This document shows positions 486 to 31,936 of a stretch of DNA of 45,609 nt, in pieces. The DNA comes from Candidatus Endomicrobiellum guadaloupense (lineage in GTDB: Bacteria > Elusimicrobiota > Endomicrobiia > Endomicrobiales > Endomicrobiaceae). The DNA is taken from the NCBI GenBank assembly GCA_031278895.1, contig JAITJN010000017.1:1-45609 (forward strand). The letters are read 5' to 3'. Made by a program: the position numbers and the translations under genes. The notes beneath the pieces were generated by a model, which had not been told where the DNA came from, did not search any database, and worked only from the letters and a program-made list of their open reading frames with translations. How positions within the stretch are numbered: the first letter of the stretch is position 1; every line of letters begins with the position of its first letter.

Positions 486-3458
486 ATGTTTTTCTATTCC
501 GACTTACACATACATTCAAAATATTCACGAGCTACTAGTCAAAATTGTAATCTTGAAGAGTTAGCTATCTGGGCACAAAAGAAAGGGTTAAGTGTTATAT
601 CAACAGGTGATTTTACACATCCAGCTTGGTTTAACGAAATAAAAGAAAAGCTTGCTCCTGCTGAACATGGCGTTTTCAAATTAAGAGATGATATTGAAAA
701 GCATGTCTTAACAAATAACTATCATCTAAGATTTTTGTTGTCAGTTGAAATTTCAACAATATATAAGAAAGACGAAAAAACAAGAAAGGTCCATCATGTC
801 GTGTTTGTTCCTGATATTAAAAGCGCTCAAAACTTAAGACAAAAACTCTCTGCTATTGGAAATATAGTTTCTGATGGTCGTCCTATATTAGGATTAGATT
901 CAAGAAATCTCCTTGAAATTACTTTAGAATCAGGAGAAGGCTCATATATAGTTCCGGCACATATATGGACCCCGTGGTTTTCAATATTAGGCTCAAAGTC
1001 AGGCTTTGATTCAGTAAAGGATTGCTATGGAGATCTTACAGAGCATGTTTTTGCATTAGAGACAGGGCTTTCATCTGATCCAGAAATGAACTGGCGGGTT
1101 TCTAGTCTTGATAAATACAGACTAATATCTAATTCCGATGCTCATTGCCCGTCTAAACTTGCTCGTGAAGCTACAGTTTTCGATACTGCCAGTGACTATT
1201 TTTCTATCAGAAAAGCATTAAAAACTGGTGAAGGATATGTTGGCACAGTAGAGTTTTTCCCTCAAGAAGGGAAATACCACGAAGATGGACATAGAAAGTG
1301 TAATATTTGTCTAACACCTGAAGAAACAAAAAAACTTAAAGGAATATGCCCTATATGTAATAAACCTCTTACAATAGGAGTTATGCATAGAGTTAATGAA
1401 CTGGCTGATCGTAAAGATAAAACTTTTACAATTCCCCAAACTGCGGGAAAAGTGTTTAGTCTTGTTCCTTTACAAGAAATTCTTTCTGAGATTATGCAGG
1501 TTGGCGCATCTAGTAAGTCACTAAACATTGCATATGAAAAATTAATACAAGCTTTAGGCCCTGAGTTATCTATTTTAAGAAGTATATCTATAGGCGAAAT
1601 ATCAAAAGCTCATTCCTCTCTACTTGGAGAAGCAATCTCACGGCTAAGAGAAGGTAAAGTTATAAAACATGCAGGATTTGATGGTGAATATGGTGTTATA
1701 AAATTATTTGAGCAAAGAGAATTAGATAGTTTTAATTCTACAAACATGATGTTTGATATGGAAATATCTTTAAAACAAATAGAAAATAAGAAAACGAATG
1801 CTCCTGACTTGCCTAAAAAAGAAATAGAATCACAAGAATTGAATTATCAAAATAATAACTGCAATACAACTAAACCTAATGTTCCACATATCTCTATAGA
1901 AAATAAAGAAATACTTTCAGGTCTTGACGAATATCAGTTAAATGCCGTAAAAAGTACAAATAAGCAGCTTTTAATAATTGCAGGGCCTGGATCAGGCAAA
2001 ACTACACTATTAACAAAACGTATAGCTTATATGGTTTTAGAAAATAATACTTCTCCTGAAAATTTTCTTGCAATAACATTTACACGCAGAGCAGCTAATG
2101 AAATGAATTATAGACTTAATCTATTGCTTCATAAAAATTATGGCAATATAAATGTTCATACCTTCCACTCTTTATGTTTTTCTATTTTAAAAGAAAATTA
2201 TGATAAAGCTAGCCTAAATCCTAATTTTAAAGTAGCAAGCGAACATGAAATGAAATTATATAAAGAACAATCTCAGTCAGAAGATATTCTAGATTTTGAC
2301 GATTTGATAACTTCTACAGTAAAACTTCTTAATGATAATCCGGATATCGCCAAAGAATACCAGGAAAGATTCAAATATATTTCAGTTGATGAATATCAAG
2401 ATATTGATGCAAAACAATATGAATTAATTAGACTATTAGCGCATTCAGATGGAAATTTATTTGTAATAGGAGACCCTAATCAAGCAATCTATGGATTTAG
2501 AGATGGTGACTCAAAATTTTTTGATAGTTTTTCTAGAGATTATCCTCAATCTCAAATAATTGGGTTAAAGAATAACTATCGTTCCATTAGAACTATTGTA
2601 AATGCTTCAAACCAACTTATTAACTCATACAATATAGTTGCAAAATATGACAACCCTCTTGAGAAAATTACTATTCACTCAGCGCCAACTGACAAGTCAG
2701 AAGCTGAGTTTGTTGTAAAAACTATTGAAAGTCTAATTGGCGGACATACTTTCTTTTCTATTGATACTAACAGATCTTTAGGAGGAGAAACAAATTTTTC
2801 ATTTTCTGATTTTGCTATCTTATATCGCACATCATCACAGTTAGCACCTATAGTTGAGTCTCTTAAAAGATCCGGCATGCCATTTGTAAAGTTATCTAAT
2901 GATCTGTTATGTGACAAAAAACCAGTTATAAAACTACTAAACAAATTAACAAATGATGAGCCGATTATATCGCAACTCAATAAAATTACAGATGAATTTA
3001 AAGAAGAAATTGACGATAATACCATACAATACATCATTAAACTGGCACAAACTTATAGAATAAGAAATGAATTTATTCATGAGATCTCTCTTCTATCTGA
3101 GATAGATACACTTGATAAAAGAGCTGATAGAATTTCGCTATTGACATTGCATTCTTCAAAAGGACTAGAGTTTAAATGCGTTTTTATAGTTGGAATGGAA
3201 AATGGGATTATCCCATTCTATCGCGCTAAAACACATTCTGAAATTGAAGAAGAAAAACGTTTATTATATGTTGGTATGACAAGGGCCCAACAAAAATTGT
3301 TTTTAACTCGGAGTGTAAAAAGAAAATGGTTAGGAGTTTATAAAAATCTAGAAACCTCACCATTTTTAGAGAATATTGAAAGTGAACTATTGAGCTTTAG
3401 TAAACCTGAAAAAATATTTCAAGCAAAAGCAAAATCTTGTCAGCTTGATTTATTCTAA
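486..3458 (+). CDS. PHP-domain / UvrD-Rep family fusion DNA helicase
   Basis: The 990-aa protein fuses a metal-dependent PHP phosphoesterase-like domain (about residues 1-250) to a superfamily 1 helicase (about 470-980). The PHP part shows DLHIH at 6-10, TGDFTHP, SVEIS and SNSDAH near 217, all expected metal ligands. A four-cysteine zinc-finger-like segment follows near 272-293 (CNIC ... CPIC). The helicase shows Walker A GPGSGKTT near 500, VDEYQD (motif II), GDPNQAIYGFR (III), NNYRS (IV), TLHSSKGLEF (V) and YVGMTRAQ (VI). Such fusions are known as uncharacterised UvrD/Rep proteins, so a repair or replication-restart role with a nuclease-like PHP module is inference. It starts at ATG 486 with GGAGG six bases upstream. 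It stands alone on the plus strand among minus-strand operons. Confidence 0.88.
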   Translation: MFFYSDLHIHSKYSRATSQNCNLEELAIWAQKKGLSVISTGDFTHPAWFNEIKEKLAPAEHGVFKLRDDIEKHVLTNNYHLRFLLSVEISTIYKKDEKTRKVHHVVFVPDIKSAQNLRQKLSAIGNIVSDGRPILGLDSRNLLEITLESGEGSYIVPAHIWTPWFSILGSKSGFDSVKDCYGDLTEHVFALETGLSSDPEMNWRVSSLDKYRLISNSDAHCPSKLAREATVFDTASDYFSIRKALKTGEGYVGTVEFFPQEGKYHEDGHRKCNICLTPEETKKLKGICPICNKPLTIGVMHRVNELADRKDKTFTIPQTAGKVFSLVPLQEILSEIMQVGASSKSLNIAYEKLIQALGPELSILRSISIGEISKAHSSLLGEAISRLREGKVIKHAGFDGEYGVIKLFEQRELDSFNSTNMMFDMEISLKQIENKKTNAPDLPKKEIESQELNYQNNNCNTTKPNVPHISIENKEILSGLDEYQLNAVKSTNKQLLIIAGPGSGKTTLLTKRIAYMVLENNTSPENFLAITFTRRAANEMNYRLNLLLHKNYGNINVHTFHSLCFSILKENYDKASLNPNFKVASEHEMKLYKEQSQSEDILDFDDLITSTVKLLNDNPDIAKEYQERFKYISVDEYQDIDAKQYELIRLLAHSDGNLFVIGDPNQAIYGFRDGDSKFFDSFSRDYPQSQIIGLKNNYRSIRTIVNASNQLINSYNIVAKYDNPLEKITIHSAPTDKSEAEFVVKTIESLIGGHTFFSIDTNRSLGGETNFSFSDFAILYRTSSQLAPIVESLKRSGMPFVKLSNDLLCDKKPVIKLLNKLTNDEPIISQLNKITDEFKEEIDDNTIQYIIKLAQTYRIRNEFIHEISLLSEIDTLDKRADRISLLTLHSSKGLEFKCVFIVGMENGIIPFYRAKTHSEIEEEKRLLYVGMTRAQQKLFLTRSVKRKWLGVYKNLETSPFLENIESELLSFSKPEKIFQAKAKSCQLDLF

Positions 3459-5890: not shown

Positions 5891-7213
5891 TTAGTTTTCC
5901 ATTTTTTTTCTATAATATTTTCTAAATTTTAAAACAATTGGAGTTCCATGAAAACCAAATCTATATCTTAAACAATTTTCAAGAAATCTTTCGTACGAAA
6001 AATGAACAAGTTCCATGTCGTTAACTGAAAAAACAAAAACAGGTGGTTTTACTGCAACTTGAGCATATTCTTTAAGCTTTAAAGTTTTTCCTTTACTTGT
6101 GTATGGTTTTCTTGCTAAAGCATCGCGTATAACTTCGTTAAGTTCTTCTTGCGTCACTTGTTTTGTATATTGCTCAAAAATTATTTCAGCTTCTTGAAAA
6201 ATCTTATCTAATCTCTGCCCTGTTTTAGCAGATATAAAAATTATATCTGCCCAGCTCATAAACTTTATTCTTTCCCTAAGCTGTTCTTCAAAATACTTTG
6301 CAGCTTCTTCTTTTTGTTCAATTAAATCCCACTTATTTATAGCTACAACAACAGGTTTATTTTTCCCAATTAAAAGTCTTGCTATTTTAACTTCAGTCTC
6401 ACCAATTCCTTGAGACGCATCAGCAACTAAAACAGCAACGTCTGCGTCTTCAATTGCATAGTCTGTACTTAAAGTTGATAGATATTCCATATCATCTTTT
6501 GTTTTACTTCCTCTATGCAACCCGGCCGTATCTATAACTATATATTCCTTCTCATTAACATGAATATGTGCTGTAAGAGAATCTCTGGTTGTTCCTGGGA
6601 TGTCATGCACTATACTTCTTTCTTCTTTTGTAACAGAGTTTATAAATGAAGATTTACCAACATTAGGTTTGCCGACGAGAATAATCTTTAGCAGTTCTTT
6701 ATTTTTTTTTGTCTTTCTATCATACTTTATATTGTCCCAAATTTTATCAAGCAAATCATGTATACTTCTTCCATGATTTGCCGATACAAAAACTATATTG
6801 TCAAAACCAAGTTCGTAAAATTCGTACCCTTTAACTTCTTCAGCCTCTGTGTCTATTTTATTTACTACAAGAATTGTTTTCTTTTTGCTTAGTCTTACTT
6901 GTTGGGCAATTTGTAAATCTGTAGAGTGAACTCCAGTTTTTCCATCAACAACAAACAAAACTATGTCAGACTGTTCAATTGCTGTATCAAGCTGACGGGA
7001 CATATCTGAAGAAAAAACAGAAATATCTTTGCTCCAACCTGCAGTATCTGTAACGATAAATTTTTTATCTTTCCAAGAAACTTCATAATCGTTTCTATCT
7101 CTTGTTGTTCCCGGAGTCTCGTGGATAATAGCTTTTTTTCTGCCGATAAGCCTATTAAAAAGAGTGGATTTGCCTACATTTGGTCTGCCTACAATAGCAA
7201 CTTTTGTTAACAT
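5891..7213 (-). CDS. der: Ribosome-associated double GTPase Der (EngA)
   Basis: A 440-aa protein with two tandem GTPase domains and a C-terminal KH-like domain, required for 50S subunit maturation. The first P-loop is GRPNVGKS near residue 9 and the second GKPNVGKSS near 180. Both have DTAGW/DTAGL and NKID/NKWD boxes. The C-terminus GFHGTPIVLKFR is typical. The open frame reaches a TTG at 7231, but ATG 7213 is preferred: GAGG lies seven to eight bases before it and family members begin near M-x-x-VAIVGRPN. It heads the der-plsY-gpsA-HU-merR operon. Confidence 0.95.
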   Translation of the reverse strand: MLTKVAIVGRPNVGKSTLFNRLIGRKKAIIHETPGTTRDRNDYEVSWKDKKFIVTDTAGWSKDISVFSSDMSRQLDTAIEQSDIVLFVVDGKTGVHSTDLQIAQQVRLSKKKTILVVNKIDTEAEEVKGYEFYELGFDNIVFVSANHGRSIHDLLDKIWDNIKYDRKTKKNKELLKIILVGKPNVGKSSFINSVTKEERSIVHDIPGTTRDSLTAHIHVNEKEYIVIDTAGLHRGSKTKDDMEYLSTLSTDYAIEDADVAVLVADASQGIGETEVKIARLLIGKNKPVVVAINKWDLIEQKEEAAKYFEEQLRERIKFMSWADIIFISAKTGQRLDKIFQEAEIIFEQYTKQVTQEELNEVIRDALARKPYTSKGKTLKLKEYAQVAVKPPVFVFSVNDMELVHFSYERFLENCLRYRFGFHGTPIVLKFRKYYRKKMEN

Positions 7214-7241
7214 CAAAAAAACCTCATACAAATTTTCTTAA

Positions 7242-7270
7242 ATTTAAATATTATTCTAACATATTGGCAA
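7242..7270 (-). promoter_or_regulatory. Putative promoter of the der operon
   Basis: On the minus strand TTGCCA (7270-7265) is followed after 17 nt by TTAAAT (7247-7242), upstream of the der ribosome site. It begins right after the U-tract of the ibrB terminator, a sensible place for a new transcription unit. The -10 box is weak. Confidence 0.4.
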
Positions 7271-7271
7271 T

Positions 7272-7298
7272 AAAAAAAACCAGTCGCTAAGGCCGGTT
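7272..7298 (-). terminator. Rho-independent terminator of the ibrA-ibrB unit
   Basis: Read on the minus strand, AACCGG (7298-7293) pairs with CTGGTT (7283-7278) around a nine-base loop, with one G-U pair. It is followed by an eight-base U-tract (A-run at 7272-7279 on the plus strand). It separates the accessory pair from the der operon. Confidence 0.75.
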
Positions 7299-7439
7299 CT
7301 TAAATTTACAATAAAACTTTTAATAGCTATACTATTTTCTCTATCACTTTAAAATGGGATATATTATTTATTAACAAAAAAAACATTTAATTTCGCATTT
7401 TCTTTAAATGATTTAAGTTTAAACAAGTTCAATAAATGA

Positions 7440-7973
7440 TTATCTATAATCTTCTTCCATTACTTCCCCAGGTTCCCATGACTTTGAAAATTTGCAATTT
7501 TCAAATAAAGCAGCTAATCCTGTTAACTGCTTTAACCTTAAGATTTCATCAACTGACATCCCTAAATGTTCTGATATCCACGATTCTGTTTTCCCTATTT
7601 CTACAAGTTCTGCTACTATACTAGATATTAAATTAATATCAGAGCTTCCTCTTGCTCTATTGTGTCTTATAGTACTTGCCATTCTATCACTTAAATCTTT
7701 ATCAATTATGCTTACAGGTATTTTTCCATTTTCTCGTTTATAAATATCTTTATATTTTTTCATTATAGTGTAACGATGAAATCCGTCGACTATTATGTAC
7801 TTATCCTTCTTTTTATCATAATAACAAACTATTGGCATTGTATATCCATCGTTTTTGATACTTTCATATAGTAACTTCATTTCCGGAGGCGCGACGCTAT
7901 TTGGGTTATAATCATTTGCTTTTATTTTACTAATTTTAACTGCCTTAATATTATATACTGGACTTTTAAACAT
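7440..7973 (-). CDS. ibrB: ParB/Srx-like protein of the IbrB type
   Basis: A 177-aa protein with an N-terminal ParB-like fold: KISKIKANDYNPNSV, then LYESIKNDGYTMPIV and the box DGFHRYT at residues 63-69. A helical part resembling the ParB helix-turn-helix follows (GKTESWISEHLGMSVDEIL). It is not a chromosome-partition ParB: it is short and has no parA partner. In E. coli, IbrB/YbdM-like proteins pair with IbrA/YbdN, as here, where ibrA lies 29 nt upstream. IbrAB was described as an activator of immunoglobulin-binding (eib) genes, but the biochemical activity is unknown. The GGAG ribosome site is at good spacing. Naming is by domain and neighbour. Confidence 0.82.
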   Translation of the reverse strand: MFKSPVYNIKAVKISKIKANDYNPNSVAPPEMKLLYESIKNDGYTMPIVCYYDKKKDKYIIVDGFHRYTIMKKYKDIYKRENGKIPVSIIDKDLSDRMASTIRHNRARGSSDINLISSIVAELVEIGKTESWISEHLGMSVDEILRLKQLTGLAALFENCKFSKSWEPGEVMEEDYR

Positions 7974-8002
7974 AAAGCACTCCTATGATAAAATTAGCCT
8001 TT

Positions 8003-9343
8003 CTACAAATTCTTATATTTCTCTACTAACTTTTTTTGTCGTAAAGTTAAATCTTTTGTTATAGAAAACGATAAACTGTAACATATAATGTCATTTTTAA
8101 TTATACATATCGCCATTCTTCTCCATGTGAGATAGTCATCTTTATTGTCAAGCCCGGGCAACTCATCAACAATTCTTTTAAATCTAATTACTTCTTTATT
8201 TCTTGTCCCTCTATTACTGTAGCTGTGAGTATTTATAGTATAGTTTGCATACTTATTTTCTAAAATCTTTACATGTTCATCTATTACAGGGCATCCGATT
8301 CTATGCCAATACTTAATAAATTTAACAAATTTATGTTTATAAGTATTTGCTGTTTCTACAGGAAGTGTCTTTAATAGAAATTTAGTAAAACTTCTCCATG
8401 TGTGATTTTTAGGCAAAGTATATGCACTGCTCATTATTTTGCTTCCATTATAAATATTGCCAAAATTTGCCCCGCTAACTCTGTTTACAACTTTGACCCA
8501 CGTTTGTGGCTCAATAACTTTAAATAAACTTAACCCCTCTTTAGCAGCATTGCCAAAAGGCTCGTCAAGACGCATTCTAGTGATGTTCACCCCGGCTTTG
8601 TAGAACAAGTCATATAATCTATTATAATCTTTATTGAATTTTGCATTGTAAGCCCATACATCTGAAACCGCCCAATCATATATTGGATAAAAATTATATG
8701 TCACCTCGTTCACTTTTGTTGAATAATCCAAGTTTTTGTACTTTACTTTATTATTGCAAAAAATTGCTCTAACCCTGTTTAAGCTCTCATCTGTTCGCAG
8801 TCCAAGTAAACAAGCAGTCTGCTCTCCTTTTCCATACCAAACACCAAAATACTTTACAAATCTTTCAAAAGACATATTTTTTTCATAAAAATCAAACTTG
8901 CTGTTTTTCTCATTAATTACAAATTGATTTTGTGGCATTTTCCTAACCCAAATCTTTTCCTTGCCTTTATCCCACCATATCCAAGTAGGGTCTAAATAAC
9001 TTAAAGAATTTTGGCTTTCCATAGGCAGACATACCCAAAATGGCTCTAGCACGCTTAAATTGTTAAACATCATTCTTTCTACAAAATTAGTACTCACAGA
9101 ATAAAACGCTTCTACGTCTATAAATAAACATCCTATTTTGCGTTTCAATCTTAGCGCTTTATCTATACACATGTTTAATAATACACCGCTGTCTTTCCCT
9201 CCACTAAAAGAAACATATATCTTCTTAAAATTATTAAAAATAATATCCAATCGCTCATTAGTAGCATCATATACATTTTTATCACTATATCTCTTTCCTT
9301 TCATTGTTTTAATGTTTTCATTTTTAGTTATCATTGTATTCAT
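8003..9343 (-). CDS. ibrA: PAPS-reductase-superfamily ATPase, DUF3440 (IbrA-like)
   Basis: A 446-aa protein with an N-type ATP-pyrophosphatase domain. The PP-loop SGGKDS is at residues 47-52, followed by FIDVEAFYS and LGLRTDESLNRVRA, which are typical of the PAPS reductase fold. The long C-terminal part (YPIYDWAVSDVWAYNAKFN, then MRLDEPFGNAAKEGL) matches DUF3440 as in E. coli IbrA/YbdN. It is unlike CysH, which is about 240 aa with a C-terminal cysteine pair. Adenylation or sulfur transfer to some substrate is plausible from the fold but untested. It forms a two-gene unit with the downstream ParB-like gene, ended by a hairpin terminator. No clear ribosome site precedes the ATG at 9343; ATG codons four and fourteen residues in are alternatives. 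Confidence 0.85.
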   Translation of the reverse strand: MNTMITKNENIKTMKGKRYSDKNVYDATNERLDIIFNNFKKIYVSFSGGKDSGVLLNMCIDKALRLKRKIGCLFIDVEAFYSVSTNFVERMMFNNLSVLEPFWVCLPMESQNSLSYLDPTWIWWDKGKEKIWVRKMPQNQFVINEKNSKFDFYEKNMSFERFVKYFGVWYGKGEQTACLLGLRTDESLNRVRAIFCNNKVKYKNLDYSTKVNEVTYNFYPIYDWAVSDVWAYNAKFNKDYNRLYDLFYKAGVNITRMRLDEPFGNAAKEGLSLFKVIEPQTWVKVVNRVSGANFGNIYNGSKIMSSAYTLPKNHTWRSFTKFLLKTLPVETANTYKHKFVKFIKYWHRIGCPVIDEHVKILENKYANYTINTHSYSNRGTRNKEVIRFKRIVDELPGLDNKDDYLTWRRMAICIIKNDIICYSLSFSITKDLTLRQKKLVEKYKNL

Positions 9344-9465
9344 ATTATTTAGTATTCAATGCTTTTTGTTTTGCTAAATTTTAAGAGGGACAATAGAAAA
9401 TTTAATCTTCTATTAACTTTTTAGTAATTTGGATGATAAACAGATGGTTAGAGTTTAGTATAACA

Positions 9466-9537
9466 AGCGGGCGATGGGACTTGAACCCACGACCTTCTCG
9501 TTGGCAACGAGACGTTCTACCACTGAACTACACCCGC
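9466..9537 (-). tRNA. tRNA-Gly (anticodon GCC)
   Basis: The reverse complement gives acceptor GCGGGUG/CGCCCGC, anticodon stem UCUCG/CGAGA with loop UUGCCAA (anticodon GCC) and T loop UUCAAGU. The discriminator is U, usual for tRNA-Gly. CCA is not encoded. It lies 17 nt downstream of tRNA-Leu, probably on the same transcript, and its 3' end faces the ibrAB module. Confidence 0.94.
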
Positions 9538-9554
9538 AAAAATTGACATTAAAG

Positions 9555-9636
9555 TGCTGAGGGCGGGATTTGAACCCGCATCCGGTTAAGGACACGCCCC
9601 TCAAACGTGCGCGTATGCCAGTTCCGCCACCCCAGC
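9555..9636 (-). tRNA. leuU: tRNA-Leu (anticodon GAG)
   Basis: The reverse complement gives a class II tRNA of 82 nt with a long variable arm. The acceptor stem is GCUGGGG/CCUCAGC with G-U, the anticodon stem CACGU/GCGUG with loop UUGAGGG (anticodon GAG), and the discriminator A. It begins six bases after the secG stop. The secG-leuU (GAG) order is also found in E. coli, so this is an ancient arrangement or a convergent one. Confidence 0.94.
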
Positions 9637-9642
9637 GTTATG

Positions 9643-9954
9643 CTATTTACTTACAGGCTCTACTGGAGCACTTAAAGGGATATTTGAAAGTTGATTTACG
9701 ATAGACATCATACCCATATTTGTGGAAAGTCTTGTTAACAATAAAGAGGTAAACAAAAATATACAAGCCATAACTATTGTCAACTTTTTTATAAAAGCCA
9801 TACCCGACGGGACATTAAAAATTTGATCTGAACCACCACCACCAAAAATACCAACCATTCCTCCACTTTTTCCTGCTTGCAGAAGAACTACAAGAATCAA
9901 TCCTATACATACTGAATAATGAACAAATTTTAAAGCAAAGAATAAAAGATTCAT
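9643..9954 (-). CDS. secG: Preprotein translocase subunit SecG
   Basis: A 103-aa membrane protein of the SecYEG channel. There are two hydrophobic segments (about residues 8-26 and 57-77) separated by the family hallmark LLQAGKSGGMVGIFGGGGSDQIF. The tail is short and proline-containing. SecG aids protein export across the inner membrane. Its promoter is consensus-like and its -10 box ends only nine bases before the ATG, so the mRNA is probably leaderless; no Shine-Dalgarno sequence is visible. Downstream come tRNA-Leu and tRNA-Gly. Confidence 0.94.
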   Translation of the reverse strand: MNLLFFALKFVHYSVCIGLILVVLLQAGKSGGMVGIFGGGGSDQIFNVPSGMAFIKKLTIVMACIFLFTSLLLTRLSTNMGMMSIVNQLSNIPLSAPVEPVSK

Positions 9955-29386: not shown

Positions 29387-31936
29387 TCACTCTGTTAGCT
29401 TAGATGTTTCTTCATAAAAATCTTTTTTAAGATCATTAAATTTAAAATTTGTTCCAACATTGCAGTAAAACCCTCTGAGTATATCAGCTCCAAGGATAGA
29501 AGTATTTATATTTGCGTAAATGCCAAAAGACTTGGTAATGTCGTAAATGATTCCCGCATCGACATTGGCATTGAAGATATCATTTTCTATTCCTTTAATA
29601 GTCATGGATTGTCTGCCATTTTTCATTTTCTGTGTAATTTCACCATATCTGCCATAAAGAAGTAGATCTATTTTTAATTCAATCTGCCACTTAAATTTTG
29701 CATTTACACCATTGTTTATTTGAAACCCAAATACTGGTCCGGCTTTATTGTATGAATTATCAAAAACGCTTAGATTTGCAGCATCAGCACCTTTTTCAAT
29801 AAAATCATCTATATGTACATAATCATAATCAACTCCAACAAAAGGTCTTAAACATAATTTATCTCTGTAATAGAAACTATACGCAAGTTCAGCTGCAATA
29901 TTAACGCTATACCCTTCAAACTGTGCGTTAGTTTCCCTATTTAAATATTTTATACTTCTTGAGGAAGTATATTTTTCCCTACTACCAGCAAGCAAAGCTC
30001 TTATTTCTAAATTATTATCAAGAAAATATGAACCGTAACATCCAACATTATATCCGGTTATATCTACTTTATCATCATTCTCAATACAGTTAGAATCAAT
30101 AGAGCCTGCTGTTATACCAAAAATATGAGCATCATCTTTTAATGTATCAAAACCCACTTGGATACCATTGCGAGTAGATTTAAAATCGCCAGGAGAGTCG
30201 TTATTTCCTTCATATAAGTCATTAGCACTGTAGCAATGTCCCCATATATTTCTTTTGCTTAATGTATCATCATTTGGGAAGTAACTTCTTTCCAACCTTG
30301 AAAAAATATTATTTCTTACATCGTTTAGAGCTGGCACTGTAATGGCATTAGCATAAATATATCCAGAAAGACTATTCAAAGCATCTTTTTTACTTAAAGT
30401 ATTATTATCATAACGTGAAATCATGCTTCTTGGAGTACTCATTTTATCTATTGTGTCAATTATATAAAAGAAGTCCCCTAAGGATTGGCCATAATCACTG
30501 TCTAAAGCAAAAGCTGTTGTGCGCTCATTGCCTGACAAACCACTAATATTACTCAATTGATCAACTTGAATATTTAGATTGACCTCATTCCAGTGATTTG
30601 TATTTCCTCCACTACCATAATCAATGTCTCCATGAACTCTAGTCATTCTACTGCCTTGCGCATTTGTATTGTCAAAAGTAATATATCCATTTCCGCCAAC
30701 AACGCCGCTTGCTATAATTATGTTATATTTTAAACTAGAACTGTTAACGCCTGAAAGAGAAATTTTAACCCTGGTACCGTTCATTAGAGCGCTAGTATTA
30801 ACAATTATTAGATCTACATATCTGCTGTTCAAATCTACATCATAATATAAAGATGCCGCTGAATTTAACTTTTCAAATTTTAACTCGTTTGAGCTTCTAG
30901 TTACCATATTTATAAATGCGCTTGATGAAAAATTAACACTTTCTCCAAAAAATGTTGAACCAGCTCCAAAACGTAATGTCCCATCATATACATTAAGATT
31001 TTGAATGTAAAAATCTCCATTAAAGATAAGTACTCCTTGTCCTATTTTAGTTACAATATTATTGCTAGCGTTGCATACTATTCCACCGTCAAGAGTTATT
31101 GTCCTTGCCTTAGCTACATCAAATGTCAAATTGCTACCTGATTCCATATATATATCATTTCTTAAATAAGTACCATCTAATTCTCTTTTCATTGTATTTC
31201 CAGAAAACAGAACATCTTTTGTTATAGCTCTTATATTTGAAAAACCTCCTACTAAGTATAGCGCTCCGCCAGAATTAGCTTTATTGCCAATAAAATATCC
31301 ACCATCATTTAAAACAATACCATTCGCACGTACTACCCCGCCTAAAGAAGACTCATTATTTTCAGCAATAACATAAGATTCGAACTTTACACTTCCAGAA
31401 GCACAATAAACAGCTCCAGCTCCACTTAAAGCTGAGTTTTCTTTAAATACAACATTATCAGTAAACGTTAGAGTTCCTGAAGATAAAAATATAGCTCCTC
31501 CTGCGCCTGTTCTTGAGCTATTTTGTATAAAAGATGCTTTACCATTTAATGTAAAATTCATTCCAGGGATACGAATTGCAGCACCACCATTAAGAGAACT
31601 CCCCTTATAAATCCCTCCTTTTAGAACTATTTTATTTATATTTAAAGATGTATTCTGTGAATTTTCTGTAAGAGAAAAAAAACTATTCTCGTTGCTTGCT
31701 GTAAGAGTTCTTGTTGTGTTGTAATCATCGCTACTTAGACTCGAGCTTGATTGAAGGACAATTGATGTTGATAAAGAAAAGTTCTCATAGAAAATAGCAG
31801 GATTGCTAGCACTGATAGCTGCCCAATTTTCAGTATTATCTACATCAGACTGCGTTTTAAAGTTTACAGCGCTTAAAAACGCTGTAGTATAAAAGAAAAA
31901 ACAAATAATAGAACCTATTATTTTTAACTTTTTCAT
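29387..31936 (-). CDS. Pmp-like autotransporter surface protein
   Basis: An 849-aa protein with a signal peptide (about residues 1-23, ending TTAFLSA). The passenger (about 90-450) carries Chlamydia Pmp-type motifs, repeated FxxN and GGA[IVL]: FIQNSSRTGAGGAIF, FKENSALSGAGAVYC and FIGNKANSGGALYL. A linker follows, then a C-terminal autotransporter barrel from about 575 (NIWGHCYSANDLYEG, GIQVGFDTLKDD, GYNVGCYGSYFLDNN). The last strand reads FYCNVGTNFKF, an aromatic end, then a 15-residue charged extension. It probably acts in adhesion or host/surface contact, which is inference. The -10 box lies eight bases before the ATG. Confidence 0.83.
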   Translation of the reverse strand: MKKLKIIGSIICFFFYTTAFLSAVNFKTQSDVDNTENWAAISASNPAIFYENFSLSTSIVLQSSSSLSSDDYNTTRTLTASNENSFFSLTENSQNTSLNINKIVLKGGIYKGSSLNGGAAIRIPGMNFTLNGKASFIQNSSRTGAGGAIFLSSGTLTFTDNVVFKENSALSGAGAVYCASGSVKFESYVIAENNESSLGGVVRANGIVLNDGGYFIGNKANSGGALYLVGGFSNIRAITKDVLFSGNTMKRELDGTYLRNDIYMESGSNLTFDVAKARTITLDGGIVCNASNNIVTKIGQGVLIFNGDFYIQNLNVYDGTLRFGAGSTFFGESVNFSSSAFINMVTRSSNELKFEKLNSAASLYYDVDLNSRYVDLIIVNTSALMNGTRVKISLSGVNSSSLKYNIIIASGVVGGNGYITFDNTNAQGSRMTRVHGDIDYGSGGNTNHWNEVNLNIQVDQLSNISGLSGNERTTAFALDSDYGQSLGDFFYIIDTIDKMSTPRSMISRYDNNTLSKKDALNSLSGYIYANAITVPALNDVRNNIFSRLERSYFPNDDTLSKRNIWGHCYSANDLYEGNNDSPGDFKSTRNGIQVGFDTLKDDAHIFGITAGSIDSNCIENDDKVDITGYNVGCYGSYFLDNNLEIRALLAGSREKYTSSRSIKYLNRETNAQFEGYSVNIAAELAYSFYYRDKLCLRPFVGVDYDYVHIDDFIEKGADAANLSVFDNSYNKAGPVFGFQINNGVNAKFKWQIELKIDLLLYGRYGEITQKMKNGRQSMTIKGIENDIFNANVDAGIIYDITKSFGIYANINTSILGADILRGFYCNVGTNFKFNDLKKDFYEETSKLTE

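Follow-up and report, generated by a model that had tools for sequence, protein, structure and literature searches.

Genes and features of the locus

The window, meaning the whole stretch of 45,609 nucleotides analysed here, comes from an Endomicrobium/Endomicrobiellum-type symbiont related to termite-gut symbionts; the genus is named Endomicrobiellum in PMC11257099. The assignment follows from congener G041, whose plasmids are 100% identical to plasmids of Candidatus Endomicrobium trichonymphae, which lives in symbiosis with Trichonympha agilis. The window contains an ibrA-type gene with an ibrB-type gene directly downstream (Table 1), and the two products belong to the IbrA and IbrB families.

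Table 1. Features at and around the ibrA/ibrB cassette (window coordinates)
Feature	Position	Strand	Remarks
Whole mobile cassette	7406..9382	-	DNA common to the window and genome G038 at another locus (blastn, three-way alignment)
ibrA-type gene	8003..9343	-	446 aa; PP-loop (PAPS_reduct) domain ~42-248, DUF3440 251-431
ibrB-type gene	7440..7973	-	177 aa; ParB/Srx N-domain (DGFHR) and HTH
Gap, tRNA-Gly 3' end to ibrA	9344..9465	-	122 bp
tRNA-Gly(gcc)	9466..9537	-	upstream of cassette, co-directional
tRNA-Leu(gag)	9554..9636	-	adjoins tRNA-Gly, co-directional
secG	9643..9954	-	head of presumed read-through unit; synteny with G026, G013, G041
Hairpin and T-run terminator	7270..7301	-	belongs to pre-existing site, not to cassette
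der (GTPase)	5891..7231	-	next housekeeping gene downstream of cassette

In IbrA, Pfam places a PAPS_reduct domain (1.6e-12, 48.3 bits, cut-off 22.5) ahead of DUF3440 (1.8e-48, 165.2 bits, cut-off 25), and the protein matches the phage family phrog_2302 at 2.7e-97. IbrB matches phrog_2159 (2.4e-78) as a full-length ParB-like protein; its match to Pfam ParB_N (5e-5) lies under the Pfam cut-off. The PP-loop motif SGGKDS, residues 47-52 of the window copy, is present in 48 of 49 IbrA sequences. The window IbrA also keeps the invariant DUF3440 residues K416-N417-D418-C421; C421 is the sole invariant cysteine of the 49 sequences and C105 is near-invariant. IbrB carries DGFHRYT at residues 63-69, and the motifs DGxHR and RHNRAR are kept in 41/41 and 40/41 IbrB sequences, respectively. 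The initial annotation had read a PP-loop/DUF3440 protein and a ParB-like protein from these motifs, and the profile searches place both in those families rather than in unrelated ones.

The AF2 model of IbrA has a pLDDT of 81.9; its closest PDB folds are PAPS/APS reductases, FAD synthase, CysD, TtuA and TilS, all with partial coverage and a TM-score by query of about 0.3. The IbrB model (pLDDT 79) matches KorB, Noc and ParB best, including the HTH, and its N-domain also matches sulfiredoxin (Srx), SbnI and SerK. The C-terminal dimerisation domain of ParB is absent from IbrB. A match of IbrB to PDB entry 8vd6 (7e-14) was discarded, as it is made up of five short matches, all identical, to an HTH repeat that looks artificial.

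Elsewhere in the window, positions 486-3458 form a single ORF of 990 aa in which a UvrD helicase (Pfam 5.8e-66) is joined to a PHP-like N-terminal part, the latter read from the sequence by eye without a Pfam match.

Insertion site and expression

The pair lies on the 3' side of a tRNA-Gly on the same strand, as first annotated. The hairpin behind it had been taken for the pair's own terminator, a reading that is not borne out: the same element stands upstream of der in G007, G028, G040, G013 and G041 (loci L065, L066, L067, L068 and L071), where the pair is absent, and it is therefore an old terminator of the site. Folding of the terminator region gave a stability not above that of shuffled sequences.

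No sigma70-like promoter or terminator was found on the minus strand of the gap between tRNA-Gly and ibrA. The mobile DNA itself carries just about 40 bp ahead of ibrA, and each of the three intact copies is located 3' of a co-directional tRNA or of proS. Three cases are few, but their simplest reading is expression by read-through, in the window probably from secG-tRNA-Leu-tRNA-Gly.

The cargo of the der/tRNA-Gly junction (window 7231-9466; L066 1998-5193; L067 7279-9758; L072 6585-11000) differs among congeners. It is the pair in G000 (the window genome) and G026, whereas G013 has an IrrE-type peptidase (M78) there and G040 an ORF with an NYN domain; in G038 the junction contains fragments weakly similar to HSDR_N, and in G041 and G023 it is almost empty. 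By its gene content, the junction looks like an insertion hot spot.

Distribution and transfer in the genus

An intact pair was found in 3 of the 42 genomes of the genus (G000, G007 and G038), and broken or partial copies occur in four more (G026, G028, G008 and G023). The remnant in G028 has an open ibrB and an ibrA with stops that is interrupted by a contig end; a single weak match in G020 was left out of the carrier count. The absence counts are limited by fragmented assemblies: that of G000 (1.3 Mb) is split into 66 contigs, and incomplete genomes are frequent among its congeners. In the other genera of the family no convincing copy was seen.

Pair and remnants occupy about five different loci, namely the der/tRNA-Gly junction (G000, G026), tRNA-Leu(caa) (G007, G028), a position after proS (G038), the vicinity of dapA/rpmE (G008) and a further site in G023. 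The DNA common to different loci comprises the two genes, flanked by about 40 bp on the ibrA side and by no more than about 35 bp beyond ibrB; with G007 the window shares positions 7460-9383. Neither an integrase or transposase gene nor an attachment repeat was found with the cassette. Integration at a tRNA attachment site was rejected, since the tRNA 3' end is not duplicated and a border integrase is absent.

Between G000 and G038, dS is 0.55 for ibrA and 0.39 for ibrB and 1.35-1.62 for der, plsY, gpsA and secG. Because the pair values are lower than those of the core genes, the pair must have moved between the two lineages after their split. Between G000 and G007 the pair values are also lower, if less decisively (0.53 and 0.36 versus 0.66-1.39 for core genes). 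In a 72-row tree the three genus copies form a group (98/92) with Hathewaya, an uncultured Bacilli bacterium and a viral contig, and copies of three other Elusimicrobia stand apart with Rickettsiales and Fibrobacterota. The endosymbiont copies are thus nested in a Bacillota/phage clade, and the pair has spread by horizontal transfer among congeners. For this group PMC11257099 reports competence genes, and it documents that other genes have been exchanged between symbionts of flagellates. The description of the pair as a compact accessory module is borne out and extended: it is patchy, mobile and horizontally moved, and clearly far from universal vertical conservation.

The pair is clearly under purifying selection, with omega of 0.13-0.18 when G000 is compared with G007 and G038 and of 0.07-0.13 between the latter two, although these values exceed that of der. 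This bears on the view that the cassette is a mobile-element remnant without a present role, decaying in the lineage. Such decay would agree with the broken or partial copies in four of the seven carriers and with the genome reduction known in the lineage (PMC11257099), but it is improbable in view of the intact ORFs in three species, the low omega against G000 and the retention of all motifs.

Context in phages, plasmids and bacteria

Gene neighborhoods were surveyed at 80 viral and 80 cellular ibrA loci, one cellular locus being dropped to leave 79. IbrB is a near-universal companion of IbrA, close by in 77/80 viral and 75/79 cellular loci. Phage records numbered 215 and 218 in the same genera, the 215 being those with an IbrA relative. 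Plasmid records with an IbrA relative amount to 596, mostly from Klebsiella and E. coli and about half of them predicted to be conjugative.

An EctC-like (ectoine-synthase family) cupin lies near the pair in 63 of the 80 viral loci and in none of the 79 cellular ones. In 12 surveyed loci it forms the N-terminal domain of IbrB; the record of one such EctC-IbrB fusion, that of mycobacteriophage Gaia, is annotated "ectoine synthase/ParB multidomain protein". A reciprocal survey of 80 viral EctC loci recovered ibrA in 77, ibrB in all 80 and a third gene, c3, in 78; the three loci without ibrA are short or cut. Because the viral ibrA and EctC sets share loci and many of the contigs are related to one another, 80 loci do not equal 80 independent events. 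After a greedy and coarse de-replication at 70% identity into 23 viral and 14 cellular clusters, EctC is present in 6/23 viral clusters. Viral EctC scores 154.5 bits against the NCBIfam ectoine synthase model (cut-off 128), and 63 of 64 copies keep 12 of the 13 strictly conserved residues listed in PMC4795551, L87 being the one that varies. The viral cupin is accordingly predicted to possess an intact ectoine synthase active site. An EctA/EctB-like cluster does not recur with the viral EctC loci.

The c3 protein, of about 145 aa, accompanies the EctC-like cupin and occurs at 56/80 viral ibrA loci (e.g. L096:9282-9719, L130:7540-8220) and at 0/79 cellular ones. The representatives tested gave no Pfam, PHROG or NCBIfam match and none to profiles of GNAT, IbrB, EctC or IbrA. 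Small proteins of about 77 aa that adjoin c3 or are fused to it are homologues of the DUF3440 segment at the C-terminus of IbrA (hhalign 1.5e-13; e.g. viral loci L115:9594-9833, L147:5416-5643).

An SNF2 helicase adjoins the pair at 38/79 cellular loci (5/14 clusters) and 19/80 viral loci (15/23 clusters), sometimes together with a GNAT acetyltransferase. Some of this adjacency may reflect position, given how compact the early regions of phages are. Among the copies most closely related to that of the window, SNF2 accompanies those at L082, L162 and L169, with GNAT in addition at L082 and L162. Beside the window pair EctC, GNAT and SNF2 are all absent, and bare pairs are common in bacteria (9/14 cellular clusters), which indicates that these partners are dispensable. 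EctC and a Bacteroidales-type GNAT were not found elsewhere in the window genome by searches that both ran without a positive control. In the literature searched, which includes only a minority of subscription papers, neither the EctC nor the SNF2 linkage was found described, and no chemistry was found there for IbrA/IbrB pairs.

In Fusobacterium phage phiFN37 (L080, 10763-13072) a second ParB-like protein, a queuine tRNA-ribosyltransferase and a queuosine precursor transporter accompany ibrA/ibrB and SNF2, a gene set suggestive of 7-deazaguanine modification. More distant ibrA-ibrB pairs lie near terminase in mycobacteriophage Phlyer, Arthrobacter phage Salgado and Faecalibacterium phage Taranis (L321, L324, L326), often with extra ParB-like genes.

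Proposed function

The explanation that we favor, with a probability of roughly 0.45, is that the pair forms the core of a phage nucleic-acid modification or anti-restriction module, bare and horizontally spread in the genus. The PP-loop of IbrA would use ATP to activate (adenylylate) a substrate, which IbrB, with its ParB/Srx nucleotide-site domain and HTH, would bring to DNA. Where present, the SNF2 helicase would open or track the DNA, and EctC-like or GNAT enzymes would remodel the group once it is attached. The nucleic acid modified in this way would protect the mobile element or change gene expression. Of this scheme the copy in the endosymbiont would retain only the activating and targeting core, placed between tRNA-Gly and the old terminator of the unit and hence transcribable by read-through. 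The phage and plasmid context suggests that IbrAB serves the mobile elements themselves more than host defence.

The main rival, and a serious one even if we consider it rather unlikely, is transcriptional co-activation, with IbrB binding DNA by its HTH, IbrA modulating it and mobile-element or surface genes being switched on; it holds what is, to our knowledge, the sole published IbrAB phenotype. This phenotype, a regulatory one, is the activation of eib prophage genes by the E. coli IbrAB island, in the account of Sandt et al. (2002) relayed by PMC7649339. Co-activation would further agree with the match of the IbrB model to the HTH-containing KorB, Noc and ParB and with the Cro/antirepressor genes near the phage copies. 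It leaves unexplained the intact PP-loop, a DUF3440 domain with four invariant residues and the linkage to EctC, GNAT and SNF2. Nor does the window autotransporter co-occur with the pair. Three surface proteins of the window had been proposed as regulatory targets; two were tested, and Pfam finds an autotransporter domain in one (29387-31936) and not in the other. This gene is open in the pair-less G006, G010, G015 and G016 and disrupted in G007, G038 and G026, which have the pair or a remnant, so that it is not co-inherited with the pair. Regulation of the window surface proteins is thus unsupported by the congeners, though the pair may still act on the autotransporter in the window strain.

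EctC normally acts on a small molecule, and a small-molecule product is therefore possible. On this account, which appears unlikely, IbrA together with EctC or GNAT would make an amino-acid-like metabolite or modify proteins for phage takeover, and nucleic acids would not be the target. The conserved active site of the EctC-like enzyme fits it, as do the small-molecule substrates of the IbrA fold relatives FAD synthase and CysD. The DNA-binding fold of IbrB and the SNF2 helicases point to DNA instead, and the lack of a recurrent EctA/EctB-like cluster also speaks against this account.

Within the favored nucleic-acid modification reading, a bolder and doubtful version can be formulated, in which IbrA/IbrB would be the core of an undescribed phage hypermodification pathway. 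IbrA would adenylylate a base and attach an amino-acid-like group, an EctC-type cyclase or GNAT would remodel it, and IbrB with SNF2 would target the DNA; phages and plasmids would use the pathway against restriction, and the endosymbionts would have captured its core.

Phages, conjugative plasmids and bacteria commonly carry an IbrA/IbrB pair. The viral linkage, including fusions, to an ectoine synthase with a predicted intact active site and to SNF2 gives a concrete biochemical handle that makes the function easier to test, and the endosymbiont copies point to selection on the bare pair and to mobility without further partners, even where the genome is shrinking.

Comparison with known systems

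DndC and SspD of the Dnd/Ssp systems and BrxP of BREX type 4 are, like IbrA, PP-loop ATPases of the PAPS reductase superfamily, and Dnd also has a ParB-superfamily partner, DndB (PMC10853773). A phosphorothioation-like DNA sulfur modification, as had been considered for the pair, is nevertheless very improbable. The profile similarity of IbrA to DndC (2.4e-8) and BrxP (5.6e-6) is weak and confined to short stretches. The conserved four-cysteine cluster is lacking, the score of 23 against the DndC equivalog lies far under its cut-off of 290, and neither DndA/D/E-like partners nor any Dnd-like recurring neighbor is present among the annotated clusters. Judged by these sequence comparisons, membership of IbrA in the phosphorothioation family is largely refuted.

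CysH PAPS reductase shares the PP-loop fold with IbrA; identity as a PAPS/APS reductase fails, as the catalytic C-terminal CGLH motif occurs in 0/49 IbrA sequences and the score against the CysH family is 23.5 bits (cut-off 154). With the ParB/Noc/KorB CTPases IbrB shares the fold of the ParB/Srx N-domain and the HTH; it is not a canonical ParB CTPase, since the boxes GERR and ENxQR are found in 0/41 sequences and DGxHR and RHNRAR stand in their place. SerK and SbnI have DGxHR in common with IbrB. A reading as a SerK-like free serine kinase was dropped because the catalytic E30 of SerK, in a weak alignment, matches no conserved residue.

E. coli IbrA/IbrB and YbdN/YbdM have the same gene order, domains and invariant motifs as the window pair, which is 36% (A) and 46% (B) identical to YbdN/YbdM. 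Unlike the E. coli pairs, the window pair is a bare cassette in an endosymbiont, and its identity to Bacillota/phage copies (66-67%) is far higher than that to E. coli. The pairs of Streptococcus phage CHPC1230, Lactobacillus phage CR28, Flavobacterium phage FCV-1 and mycobacteriophages often adjoin an SNF2 helicase, an EctC-like cupin or terminase, whereas the window copy has none of the three; in all of them A and B are adjacent and co-directional as in the window, with identities of up to 54% for A and 72% for B.
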